A stretch of DNA of 64,000 bases from NCBI GenBank assembly GCA_012517475.1, contig JAAYUV010000027.1, positions 1-64,000 on the forward strand, read 5' to 3'. Below the pieces are notes generated by a model. The model was not told the DNA's origin. It made no database searches and saw only the letters and a list, made by a program, of their open reading frames with translations. Below, in pieces: positions 1,412 to 5,315 of the stretch (position 1 is the stretch's first letter; the number at the start of each line of letters is the position of its first letter). Source of the stretch: Peptococcaceae bacterium (lineage in GTDB: Bacteria > Bacillota > Desulfitobacteriia > Desulfitobacteriales > Syntrophobotulaceae). The position numbers and the translations under genes are program-made.

Positions 1412-1930
1412 ATGAATCAAAACGGAGAACAAACTCTATGGGACTACCGGGGGGTAGATTCCTCGGAAATCCCGAACATTGACATCTACATGGACCAATT
1501 ACTAACCTTCTTTGATACCTCTTATGGCTTTCTTCGAAGGGACCCCAAGGAGAGCGTCCTGACCAAGGCGATGATTAATAATTATGTCAAAGCGGGGATT
1601 ATGGATAAACCACTAAAAAAGAAATATAACCAAAATCAGGTTAAGAAACTTATTATGATTTATCATTTAAAACTGGTCCTTGCTATTCAGGATATCAAGA
1701 GACTGTTTCAGGGGGTTGAAAAAGCTAATAAATTGACAGGAGAATTCTATCAAAAATTTCTGGATATAGAGCATGCGGCTTATGAAGAGCTGGCTGTCCG
1801 TTACGCCCAAATAGATGCCCAGCAAAATAACAAAGAAGTATTAATTCATACCATTCTTTCCTTATCTACCGAAGCCTGTGCCAGAAAACGCCTGGCTGAA
1901 AAACTTCTGGATAAATTGCGCGATTGCTAA
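1412..1930 (+). CDS. DUF1836 domain-containing protein
   Basis: Soluble 172-aa protein. The block around LTKAMINNYVKAGIMDKP and the basic YNQNQVKKLIMIYHLK stretch that follows are typical of DUF1836, a Firmicute family with a MerR-like winged-helix appearance and suspected DNA binding. GGAGG at 1400-1404 lies well placed before the ATG. The gene is convergent with the GGDEF/HD-GYP gene, and the two stop codons overlap by four bases at 1927-1930. No partner gene indicates its target. Family assignment is firm; regulatory function is an inference. Confidence 0.75.
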   Translation: MNQNGEQTLWDYRGVDSSEIPNIDIYMDQLLTFFDTSYGFLRRDPKESVLTKAMINNYVKAGIMDKPLKKKYNQNQVKKLIMIYHLKLVLAIQDIKRLFQGVEKANKLTGEFYQKFLDIEHAAYEELAVRYAQIDAQQNNKEVLIHTILSLSTEACARKRLAEKLLDKLRDC

Positions 1931-3552
1931 TGATTCATAATCCAAACAAATTCTTCCAACAAATAAGGATCATAATGAAGTCCGGAATACCTCCTGAGTT
2001 CTTCCAGAGCTTGGGACTTCGTCATTGCTTCCTTATAAGGCCGGTTCGTTGTGATGGCATCATAACTATCGATAATTCTCAAAATTCTGGCCCCCAGCGG
2101 GATTTCTTCACCCTTTAGACCTTTTGGGTAACCGCTTCCATCATAGTTTTCATGATGATGGAGAACAATTTCGACAGTATTTTTAAGTGATTTCATTGGC
2201 CTGATAATATCTGCTCCCCATTGGGGATGTTGTTTGAGTATTTCCCATTCCTGAGTGTTCAACTTAGCCGGTTTATTTAATATTTCCCTTGCCACTTCAA
2301 TTTTTCCGATATCATGAAGGAGGGAACTGTAACAGAGTTCTTTAATGTCTTCATGATTTAATCCCACCTTTTCCCCAAGCTTCCGGGCAAGCAGCATGGT
2401 TCTTTCCGAATGGCCAAACGTATAGCGGTCTTTGGCATTAATAACCATGGTAAGGGTCCGGATCGAGTTAAATATATCCTTTTCCTCATCCATTAAACGA
2501 AGACTCAATTCATCAAACACTGAGTAATATGCTTCGACCTTGTTTTTGCTTACGAATTTTGCTTTATACAATGCTTCATCCGCTTTTTGTATTAGCTTTT
2601 CCTTGGTATTAGCCATCCGGGGATATTCAGCTACCCCGACGGAAATTGTTAATCGCCCTTTTGGCAGTACCTCCATACCTGGGATAACGGTATCTTCAAT
2701 TTTACTGCGAATCGTTTCTCCTACCGTCTTGGCGGTTTCCGTGGTTGTTCCCGGCAATATCATGGCAAATTCTTCTCCGCCGTACCTTGCACATTCACAG
2801 TGTTCCGGCGTACATTCCTTAAGAATCCCGGCGACCAACTTTAACACGAAATCACCTTTTTGATGACCGAAGGAGTCATTATAGACTTTAAAATAGTCTA
2901 AGTCAAACATAATCAGGCTTAATGGTTCTTTCTTTTTTTCCGCCTGGGCTATTGCCCGGTCCATAATCAGCTGAAATGACCGGTGGTTATGAAGATCGGT
3001 AAGACCATCATAGCTTGCCAGCCGCTCGAGTTTCCGGTGGATTTCTTTTTCCGTATCCCGCATATTCCCTAAAAGCCAGGCAACCAGAAAAAACACAATA
3101 AAATACATCATATCACTATCGATGGAAGTAAATAATTTTCGATAACTAACAAAGAACAGTACTGCTAGTGAACAAAAAGCAGTACTTAGCGCATGTTTTA
3201 CACCATATTTTAAAGCCATGATAATAACCGGCATAATAAGCAAAATTTCAAAAGAGCTGTTGTTTAAATAGACTAAAAATACTCCTGAGATAATAAAATA
3301 AAAAATATTAACTACATATTCTAAAATAATATTATTATATTGGTCACTCAAAAACCTCACCAGAATAATCAAGGGAAAAATCACGGCAAACATTACGGTG
3401 GAGTGATAGTAGCCGATTTGATAAGTAAGCTGGTTTTTAAAACTAACTGCTACCAGAATTACAATAGCTAACAAACAGAAGGAAATCACCTGGGAAGCCA
3501 GAATATATTTCTCCTGCTTGTTTTTATCTTCGTGATACATATTCTCCCTCAC
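1927..3552 (-). CDS. Membrane GGDEF / HD-GYP protein (c-di-GMP turnover)
   Basis: This 541-aa protein has about six membrane helices in the first 165 residues, a diguanylate cyclase domain with an intact GGEEF near residue 258, and a C-terminal HD-GYP phosphodiesterase domain with HDIGK near 410 and HHENYDGSGYP near 470. Both the synthetic and the degrading site look intact, so it could make and break c-di-GMP. The frame can start at GTG 3552 or ATG 3540; neither has an ideally spaced ribosome site. It lies directly after the agrD terminator on the same strand, so some read-through from the agr operon is possible. Confidence 0.88.
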   Translation of the reverse strand: MRENMYHEDKNKQEKYILASQVISFCLLAIVILVAVSFKNQLTYQIGYYHSTVMFAVIFPLIILVRFLSDQYNNIILEYVVNIFYFIISGVFLVYLNNSSFEILLIMPVIIMALKYGVKHALSTAFCSLAVLFFVSYRKLFTSIDSDMMYFIVFFLVAWLLGNMRDTEKEIHRKLERLASYDGLTDLHNHRSFQLIMDRAIAQAEKKKEPLSLIMFDLDYFKVYNDSFGHQKGDFVLKLVAGILKECTPEHCECARYGGEEFAMILPGTTTETAKTVGETIRSKIEDTVIPGMEVLPKGRLTISVGVAEYPRMANTKEKLIQKADEALYKAKFVSKNKVEAYYSVFDELSLRLMDEEKDIFNSIRTLTMVINAKDRYTFGHSERTMLLARKLGEKVGLNHEDIKELCYSSLLHDIGKIEVAREILNKPAKLNTQEWEILKQHPQWGADIIRPMKSLKNTVEIVLHHHENYDGSGYPKGLKGEEIPLGARILRIIDSYDAITTNRPYKEAMTKSQALEELRRYSGLHYDPYLLEEFVWIMNH

Positions 3553-3554
3553 AA

Positions 3555-3587
3555 AAGAATAAGGTGGGAATCCCCCACCTTATTCTT
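3555..3587 (-). terminator. Terminator after the agrBD genes
   Basis: Fourteen-base arms at 3555-3568 and 3574-3587 pair around a five-base loop and are followed on the minus strand by TTTTGTG. The stem begins within the agrD-like stop codon, so it ends the agr operon just before the GGDEF/HD-GYP gene. Confidence 0.8.
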
Positions 3588-3708
3588 ATTTTTGTAATGA
3601 CTTCGGTGTTTTGGGTTGATAAGCAAGGTAACCACAAGCAAAAACGGAACCGGCAGTAGCTAAGAGTACTAACATAGAAGCGATTAGAGTGTAGAGAATC
3701 CTTTTCAT
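3586..3708 (-). CDS. agrD: AgrD-like cyclic lactone autoinducer pre-peptide (40 aa)
   Basis: A 40-codon ORF directly after agrB. The product starts MKRILYTLIASMLVLL (amphipathic/hydrophobic leader), then SVFACGYLAYQPKTPK and a short basic tail. Cys25 sits where the thiolactone cysteine sits in clostridial AgrD-like peptides, and the tail resembles the YQPxxPxxL-K ending of that family. AAGGAGG lies inside the last codons of agrB, nine bases before the ATG, and the agrB stop is four bases upstream, so the two are translationally coupled. Known role of the family: AgrB cuts and cyclises the peptide and exports a secreted signal. The predicted ring is Cys25 plus four following residues; the exact mature form is inference. 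Confidence 0.88.
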   Translation of the reverse strand: MKRILYTLIASMLVLLATAGSVFACGYLAYQPKTPKSLQK

Positions 3709-3712
3709 TGAA

Positions 3713-4300
3713 TTAACCCTCCTTTTTCTTTTTATTAAATACCGGTAGCAAGGTCAAGGTTTGGTAACCGATTCCTAACACTACACTGGTATTTAGCAAC
3801 TGATTATTGCAGAAAAAAATTACAGCAATAGCAAAAGTCACAAAACCAACAGAAATTATCTTTAAATTCTTCTTTAGCTTTTGTGAAATTATTGGTTTTG
3901 CTTCACAATCTACGGGAGCTAAGAACGCAACAATCAATAAGGACATAAACAACAATATAAAAGCTATATGGAAATTATATAAGTTATGTTGAATAAGCTT
4001 TTGTGTAATAACACCTAGAGTAGAGTAAATCACCGCACCGAAAGTAAGACATTTTAGAGGAGTATTCATATGTGCACCACCAGAAACTTTACGCAACAAG
4101 CCACCAAAAACTGCCGAAATCGCAGTAGGAATGAGGGCATCAAAGAAAAACGCAACCAACAGTATTGCAAAAAAACCTACTATAGATAAAAATAAAGACT
4201 CAAGCCCAAAAGCTACTATTTCTTTCTTTTCATCGCTGTAATCTAGTTCTTCTGTGATTGTATCAGATAAACGTTGACTGATTTCCGATAAATTAATCAT
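3713..4300 (-). CDS. agrB: AgrB-type accessory gene regulator protease/transporter
   Basis: A 195-aa integral membrane cysteine endopeptidase that processes the AgrD pre-peptide. The family core RKVSGGAHMNTPLKC is present, with the catalytic His at residue 77 and Cys at residue 84, the same numbering as in Staphylococcus aureus AgrB. About four to six hydrophobic helices follow. Its start overlaps the stop of the 4297-4752 gene as ATGA, and it carries the ribosome site for agrD in its last codons. It is therefore the third gene of a tight minus-strand set: two small membrane proteins, agrB, agrD. No classical agrC/agrA pair follows. Confidence 0.92.
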   Translation of the reverse strand: MINLSEISQRLSDTITEELDYSDEKKEIVAFGLESLFLSIVGFFAILLVAFFFDALIPTAISAVFGGLLRKVSGGAHMNTPLKCLTFGAVIYSTLGVITQKLIQHNLYNFHIAFILLFMSLLIVAFLAPVDCEAKPIISQKLKKNLKIISVGFVTFAIAVIFFCNNQLLNTSVVLGIGYQTLTLLPVFNKKKKEG

Positions 4301-4752
4301 CTTCTACCCTTTACCTTTTTCCATTTATTAATAATAAAAGCTGTCAGGAATAAAGAAATAATTTGAGGCCAAGTTGTAAAAATTCTAATCGGCACATTAT
4401 TTTCCAGTGTAATTAAAGTAATATCAAACAGAACTTTGATCAAAATCAGAAAAGTTGTTTCAAAAAGGATTAAGGCCAAAAAACTGATCAGAGAAGCTAG
4501 TATTGAGGTGCTAATCGATATTTTATAAAAAAATATTAAAATAACAAATAATAATCCAATTAAAATGATAGTATGTACCCCAAAGGTGATGGGCAATAAT
4601 CTTAATACATAGGCAACAAGTGCCAAACACAGTCCTATTGGAACAATTTCTTTCCATTTAATTGGAACATTTGCAATGACAAATGCTAAGTATACCAACG
4701 CTATTTGTTCAGGAATACCCCCAAAAAGCAACGCCAAAAACGGGATTTTCAT
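4297..4752 (-). CDS. Small polytopic membrane protein of the agr locus (paralog 1)
   Basis: A 151-aa, very hydrophobic protein with about five membrane helices. It aligns along its length with the neighbour at 4854-5315: both begin MKIP, share GIPEQIA near residue 12, and share RLLPITFG-H near residue 50. That alignment and a GAGAGG ribosome site set the start at ATG 4752 rather than 4791. It has no enzymatic motif. Its stop overlaps the agrB start. It resembles in size and hydrophobicity the membrane sensor part of AgrC-type kinases, but has no kinase domain. A role in peptide sensing or export is an inference from context. Confidence 0.75.
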   Translation of the reverse strand: MKIPFLALLFGGIPEQIALVYLAFVIANVPIKWKEIVPIGLCLALVAYVLRLLPITFGVHTIILIGLLFVILIFFYKISISTSILASLISFLALILFETTFLILIKVLFDITLITLENNVPIRIFTTWPQIISLFLTAFIINKWKKVKGRR

Positions 4753-4853
4753 AGTACCTCTCTTACAATTATCTTTAAAGGTCCATTCCAATAGAAAACT
4801 GTGGTAATCAGATAATAATCTCTTTTAAAGAAGCATGGCATTAATTTCTAAAT

Positions 4854-5315
4854 TTATAACTTAATGTGCTTTTTCCTTGCTCTTATCCTAAATATTATAA
4901 AGCTTAGAACAAAAATAACTAATACTTGGGGTAATGTAATTAATATCCTAATAGTAGTATTAGAAAACAAAATCTCTGAAGTTATTCCAAATAGAGGCAT
5001 TAGTAACGTTAAACAAGCAGTCTCAACAATTATCAAAGTTAGAAAACTGATTAGACTTGCTATGAGGGAAGAGTTAATATTTCCTTTACCGATTAAAATC
5101 AATAAAACAAACAGTAAACCCATAATAAAAACCGTATGGATTCCAAAAGTTATTGGCAAAAGTCTTAAAATATAAGAAGTAAAAGCCAAAATTGCTCCAA
5201 TTAAAATAATCCTCTTCCAATTTTGTGTAATATTTGCAATAGAAAAGGCTAAAGCTGCAACCGCGATTTGTTCCGGTATTCCCTGAAATATTAAAGCCAA
5301 TAAAGGTATCTTCAT
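4854..5315 (-). CDS. Small polytopic membrane protein of the agr locus (paralog 2)
   Basis: A 153-aa membrane protein, the first gene of the agrBD transcription unit and a tandem paralog of the 4297-4752 product (shared MKIP start, GIPEQIA, and RLLPITFGIHT motif). The start has GGAGG eight bases upstream. The genes are separated by about 100 bases, unlike the overlapping genes that follow. Two diverged copies next to one agrBD pair suggest two recognition or partner roles, but no function can be read from motifs. It is not an AgrC as such, because there is no histidine kinase or ATPase domain. Confidence 0.75.
   Translation of the reverse strand: MKIPLLALIFQGIPEQIAVAALAFSIANITQNWKRIILIGAILAFTSYILRLLPITFGIHTVFIMGLLFVLLILIGKGNINSSLIASLISFLTLIIVETACLTLLMPLFGITSEILFSNTTIRILITLPQVLVIFVLSFIIFRIRARKKHIKL

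Follow-up and report, generated by a model that had tools for sequence, protein, structure and literature searches.

An Agr quorum-sensing locus, in which the AgrC receptor has probably been taken apart, was found on the minus strand of the window (the whole stretch of 64,000 nucleotides that was analysed, from a Peptococcaceae bacterium): two small membrane proteins, M1 and M2, would sense the peptide, and the neighbouring kinase and/or a membrane GGDEF/HD-GYP protein would respond. AgrB and AgrD are identified, M is homologous to the sensor half of AgrC, two kinds of output are linked to it, and the outputs have been switched among its relatives. The source genome is closely related to that of Candidatus Dichloromethanomonas elyunquensis (contig LNDB01000001, G001, same genus).

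The genes follow one another in the order PAS-HisKA kinase, M1, M2, AgrB, AgrD, hairpin and GGDEF/HD-GYP (Table 1), and about 37 of the 61 related genomes carry the cassette too. The stop of M2 overlaps the start of agrB by 4 nt; between the end of agrB (3713) and the start of agrD (3708) there is a gap of 4 nt, and a strong Shine-Dalgarno sequence, AAGGAGGG, lies inside the end of agrB. The first-pass annotation had recognised AgrB by its His77 and Cys84 and AgrD as a 40-aa peptide with Cys25 in FACGYLAYQP; both residues of AgrB stand at these positions, the peptide is as described, and the AgrB/AgrD assignment is far above chance. Translational coupling of agrD to agrB, claimed at the same time, fits the gap and the Shine-Dalgarno sequence but is not proved by them.

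Table 1. Features of the agr locus, in minus-strand gene order, with their positions in the window
Feature	Position	Strand	Basis
PAS-HisKA-HATPase membrane sensor kinase, 594 aa	5429..7213	-	Pfam HisKA 2.5e-18, HATPase_c 1.8e-18, PAS
M1, stand-alone AgrC-sensor-like membrane protein, 153 aa, 5 long helices	4854..5315	-	hhalign, AlphaFold
M2, tandem paralogue of M1, 151 aa, 54% identical to M1	4297..4752	-	
AgrB peptidase, 195 aa, His77 and Cys84	3713..4300	-	PF04647 E=1.7e-39
AgrD precursor, 40 aa	3586..3708	-	TIGR04223 quorum_AgrD 34.4 bits, cut-off 19
Hairpin between agrD and the GGDEF/HD-GYP gene, terminator/attenuator-like	3555..3587	-	14-bp stem
Membrane GGDEF + HD-GYP protein, 541 aa, likely ATG start near 3540	1927..3552	-	GGDEF 4.6e-42, HD_5 7e-44

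That AgrC is missing beside agrD, as had been noted, is right in the narrow sense: no GHKL kinase gene follows agrD, no GHKL/SPOB_a domain was found by Pfam in the neighbouring proteins of the locus, and an adjacent LytTR response regulator (AgrA) was likewise absent by Pfam, the neighbours being the HisKA kinase and the GGDEF/HD-GYP protein. Elsewhere, too, the window holds no M-type fused AgrC; profile matches across the genome (G000) fell on contigs C100, C60 and C88 only. The conclusion drawn earlier, that the receptor is unknown, is at best half correct: two AgrC sensor halves (M1 and M2), a HisKA kinase and a GGDEF/HD-GYP protein are all present; the ORFs of M1 and M2 occupy much of the very interval that was annotated and had been left unmentioned.

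A terminator had also been said to replace agrC. The hairpin is real, with a perfect 14-bp stem after agrD, but it sits between agrD and the linked GGDEF/HD-GYP gene, and replacement by a terminator is rejected as the full account. Relatives keep the hairpin behind agrD, with base changes on both sides of the stem (GGTGGG/CCCACC to GGCGGG/CCCGCC; ATAAGG/CCTTAT to ATGAGG/CCTCAT). It was scored as a terminator on the plus strand; in the agr direction a GC core precedes a U-rich arm, so the element is terminator- or attenuator-like both ways, and its probable role is to lower read-through to the gene downstream, not to close the system. The stem sequence around GGTGGG is conserved over several genera, perhaps more than a plain terminator requires.

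Searches of M1 and M2 against Pfam and NCBIfam gave no match, the NCBIfam AgrC models included. Relatives of M1 were found in 40/61 related genomes, frequently as tandem pairs; the same search also matched the N-termini of 450–485-aa ORFs, which are AgrC-type SPOB_a/GHKL kinases (best PDB match of these fused kinases: the S. aureus AgrC kinase module, 6e52, E 9e-25). Stand-alone M was aligned over its full length with positions 6–155 of fused AgrC-type GHKL kinases (hhalign 99.7%, E 5e-27, 150 columns), and M1 is likewise homologous to the gene for the sensor at split AgrC loci; residues invariant in M and fused AgrC alike (M1 numbering): P14, E15, R51, G58, H60, E98 and R123. The AlphaFold model of M1 (pLDDT 94) consists of five long helices and a short one; helices (AlphaFold) of: M1 – 5–26, 33–52, 57–74, 80–109, 113–118, 120–152; fused AgrC – 6–28, 34–53, 60–77, 81–109, 114–119, 121–145. 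The six helical elements coincide, after which the fused kinase continues with two more helices and the kinase; M1 and M2 (151–153 aa) end after helix 5, lack the DHp and GHKL ATPase half, and M is shorter than the full AgrC membrane domain by about 80 residues and two helices. A Foldseek search of PDB with the M1 model gave no meaningful match, hence no solved sensor fold served for comparison. On these alignments and models, M1 and M2 are homologous to the sensor half at the N-terminus of AgrC kinases from clostridia; they are best read as a detached AIP-sensor subunit with exchangeable outputs, which would bind the peptide and transfer its signal. M is under purifying selection, since dN is 0.21 against dS 1.8 in comparison with the sister species; on this and on conservation across families, M as a decayed AgrC is rejected. 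No M homologue was found in the phage collection, and the plasmid collection gave a single one in a record that is apparently contamination: L206 (NZ_CP061968.1, 27 kb, labelled Klebsiella pneumoniae plasmid) carries a complete M-AgrB-AgrD-GGDEF/HD-GYP cassette of clostridial type and is probably contaminated or mislabelled.

Three agr loci are present in the assembly to which the window belongs, each with a different state of the receptor: C60 – LytTR regulator (AgrA), fused 452-aa AgrC, AgrB, AgrD; C88 – LytTR regulator, M-like 152-aa gene, 286-aa GHKL kinase, AgrB, AgrD; window – M twice, GHKL kinase absent. The staphylococcal AgrC model of NCBIfam is matched by the short kinase of C88 from position 138 of 414 on and not before; this kinase corresponds to positions 176–457 of fused AgrC, exactly what M lacks; M and the short kinase therefore add up to AgrC. 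The same split into M and a short GHKL kinase is seen in other genomes, so many of them that a single-gene assembly error is an unlikely cause. In two split loci (L129 and L144) an ORF of 564 and 294 aa, respectively, is inserted on the opposite strand, probably as a mobile element. It had been stated that a canonical AgrC-AgrA pair elsewhere in the genome, if linked to the window peptide, would speak against a signal whose receptor is unknown; a canonical (C60) and a split (C88) system do exist, and no link of either to this peptide appears, as each carries a distinct AgrD of its own (endings: C60 – ..SLFMM-YQPEPPKKS; C88 – ..CFGWF-YEPQRPKEL). Cross-talk of these two systems with the window peptide is possible. 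Past agrD at C88 (L027:8130-8912) lies a gene for a protein of 260 aa that looks secreted, is rich in Cys at its C-terminus and matches nothing in Pfam; this protein may be the effector of the C88 system.

In the 594-aa kinase of the window, two N-terminal TM helices flank a poorly conserved extracytoplasmic domain (mean identity 27%, against 71% for HisKA), and no response regulator adjoins it at the locus. It is probably an orphan kinase that acts on a distant regulator; two genes of the Spo0A family are present in the genome, and Spo0A is the likeliest guess at the target. A kinase homologue adjoins the M/AgrB/AgrD block in a same-strand cluster in 31/31 assessable loci, i.e., related cassettes whose neighbourhood falls on the contig. 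The kinase lies upstream of the cassette in the family of the window and downstream in a second, presumably Desulfosporosinus/Desulfitobacterium-like family, so their adjacency has outlived rearrangement. Of 61 genomes, 35 contain the cassette together with the full-length kinase and 23 contain neither, the exceptions (2 with the cassette only, 1 with the kinase only) all being at contig edges (Fisher p = 2e-13, kinship of the genomes being ignored). Paired absence occurs within at least two genera (g2, g12). Several of the adjacency calls depend on HMM thresholds set in this analysis, and the linkage statistics are to be read as ignoring kinship.

The catalytic motifs of the GGDEF/HD-GYP protein (GGEEF, HD, HHE..GYP) are intact, and its gene follows agrD in the window as well as in L030, L031, L046, L047 and L048. 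Phylum-wide, 53 of 56 full-length matches to the subfamily, N-terminal membrane domain included, are Agr-adjacent (41/56 by coordinates and 12 more by inspection, with AgrB and/or AgrD alongside); of the remaining three, two are at contig edges and one is a true negative. Matches to the catalytic part only were Agr-adjacent in 1/44 cases. By this linkage and its intact motifs, the protein is a candidate second output, acting through c-di-GMP. Frameshifts or stops in single cassette genes (GGDEF/HD-GYP, M or kinase) were seen in L031, L041, G040, G049 and G050, which points to occasional decay or sequencing errors.

Across Bacillota, M was matched in 131/398 genomes. In 80 sampled loci essentially every stand-alone M off contig edges neighbours a GHKL kinase, a HisKA kinase or a GGDEF/HD-GYP protein on the same strand; in the one remaining case (L144) an ORF intervenes between M and its GHKL kinase. 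At L116 the order is M-AgrB-AgrD-GGDEF/HD-GYP-M-HisKA kinase, each output being preceded by one M. On the M tree at least 9 output switches were counted with weak nodes collapsed and 13 on the ML tree, against 58 expected for shuffled labels; outputs were thus swapped repeatedly, yet non-randomly. Pairing of M1 with the kinase and of M2 with GGDEF/HD-GYP was considered and not adopted, as no clear segregation was seen on the M tree. M-kinase pairs without AgrBD occur at L120, L130, L131, L134 and L152 (genes overlapping by 4–8 nt in L130, L134 and L152; receiver domains on the kinases of L120 and L134); such pairs are candidate solo receptors and could eavesdrop on the peptides of others.

For the signal itself, a guide is a C. 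thermocellum precursor of AgrD type, the mature product of which was identified by LC-MS/MS as a cyclic pentapeptide of residues 25–29 (S25–F29), cut before Y30 (PMC5322536). The window AgrD has the same register (ring 25–29, Y30, P35), from which cyclo-C25-G-Y-L-A29 follows as the predicted product; the AIP of the window would be a five-residue thiolactone ring, C25-G-Y-L-A29, cut before Y30, with secretion and cyclization predicted from register alone. Nearly all AgrDs of these loci have Cys (or Ser), four variable residues, an aromatic residue or His, and x-P-x-x-P; Cys, four variable residues and YQPKTPK are conserved in about 34 relatives.

In the mechanism proposed for the window, AgrB would process AgrD into the cyclic pentapeptide (predicted CGYLA thiolactone), which M1 and/or M2, matching the first five helices of the AgrC sensor, would sense; M would then relay the signal through membrane contact to a partner encoded alongside. 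The PAS-HisKA kinase would be one such partner, perhaps phosphorylating Spo0A, and/or the membrane GGDEF/HD-GYP protein would convert the signal into a change of c-di-GMP. A wider proposition is put forward with slightly more doubt than confidence: the stand-alone AgrC sensor subunit may be an interchangeable peptide receptor, which here drives the HisKA kinase and, by direct membrane contact and no phosphorelay, the GGDEF/HD-GYP protein, placing c-di-GMP under the control of a cyclic peptide quorum signal, and the same arrangement may supply the missing receptor of many AgrC-less clostridial Agr loci.

Several points count against a split receptor, the lack of a matching solved sensor structure among them. 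The kinase has an extracytoplasmic domain of its own, and its signal could be another ligand or the peptide itself; M mostly adjoins AgrB, and a role in making or exporting the AIP is possible; and M falls short of the full AgrC membrane domain by the residues and the two helices given above, of which the partners are the putative suppliers. It is conceivable, though unlikely, that the HisKA kinase receives the AIP by its own extracytoplasmic domain and that M1 and M2 are accessory proteins which help to mature or export the AIP or serve in self-immunity. In many loci M and agrB overlap, the linkage of the kinase is equally tight, and in C. perfringens a separately encoded kinase, VirS, is the proposed AgrD-peptide receptor (PMC7492741); however, the extracytoplasmic part is the least conserved region of the kinase, whereas M retains invariant residues of sensor type, is found with kinases in the absence of AgrBD, and in split AgrC loci stands where the AgrC sensor is missing. 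The last of these observations bears also on M1 and M2 as negative elements, decoys that titrate the peptide or inhibit the kinase and have no activating receptor role. The absence of an enzymatic domain and the tandem copies would suit decoys, but in split AgrC loci M should be a working sensor because the short GHKL kinase has no other sensor part, and the decoy function appears very improbable.

Another explanation takes the locus for an ordinary clostridial orphan AgrBD, with the AgrC-type kinase of C60 or C88 as the receptor, and M1, M2, the HisKA kinase and the GGDEF/HD-GYP protein as neighbours with no relation to it or as what is left of a decayed AgrC. Loci of AgrBD only are well known in clostridia, C. 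difficile agr1 and C. perfringens among them (PMC8534292, PMC7492741), and two further AgrC systems are at hand in the genome. The explanation is nevertheless judged quite unlikely, given that the linkage of M, kinase and GGDEF/HD-GYP is kept across families and phylum-wide, that M is under purifying selection, and that C60 and C88 each have an AgrD of their own which differs from that of the window.

Agr signals without AgrC are a standing puzzle in clostridia, to which this locus and related ones contribute a candidate receptor and two types of output. If the split receptor is true, the receptor is modular at the level of genes and an Agr peptide is linked to c-di-GMP; the recurrence of the M arrangement in many clostridia makes it a candidate for the listener that receptor-less Agr signals seem to lack. 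In the papers searched, subscription journals lying outside the search, neither a stand-alone AgrC sensor with exchangeable outputs nor a tie of Agr to a dedicated GGDEF/HD-GYP family or to c-di-GMP was found.

With the staphylococcal agr system (AgrBDCA) the locus shares the His/Cys pair of AgrB, the AgrD precursor and a putative receptor derived from the AgrC sensor fold; in contrast to that system, it is devoid of the AgrC kinase half and the LytTR regulator AgrA, the putative sensor takes the form of two small proteins, a HisKA kinase and a GGDEF/HD-GYP protein are present, and the predicted AIP is a tail-less five-residue ring of clostridial kind. In AgrBD loci of clostridia that lack agrC (C. 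perfringens with VirS; C. difficile agr1), no AgrC kinase adjoins AgrBD either, but the window locus has, in addition, a sensor half and output genes, all of them conserved; VirS, the receptor proposed for C. perfringens, is a complete kinase encoded elsewhere (PMC7492741). The C. thermocellum AgrD (Clo1313_2818) agrees with that of the window in ring residues 25–29, Y30 and P35, and differs in forming a Ser lactone instead of the predicted Cys thiolactone; no cognate AgrB, AgrC or AgrA was found in that study (PMC5322536). The kinase resembles clostridial orphan sporulation-type histidine kinases in its PAS-HisKA-HATPase architecture, in having no adjacent response regulator and in the presence of Spo0A in the genome; unlike them, it lies inside an Agr locus beside AgrC-sensor-like proteins, and its phosphorylation of Spo0A is putative. 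The GGDEF/HD-GYP protein has both domains and the catalytic motifs of known c-di-GMP enzymes, from which its subfamily is set apart by a distinct membrane N-terminus and by a place nearly always downstream of AgrBD.
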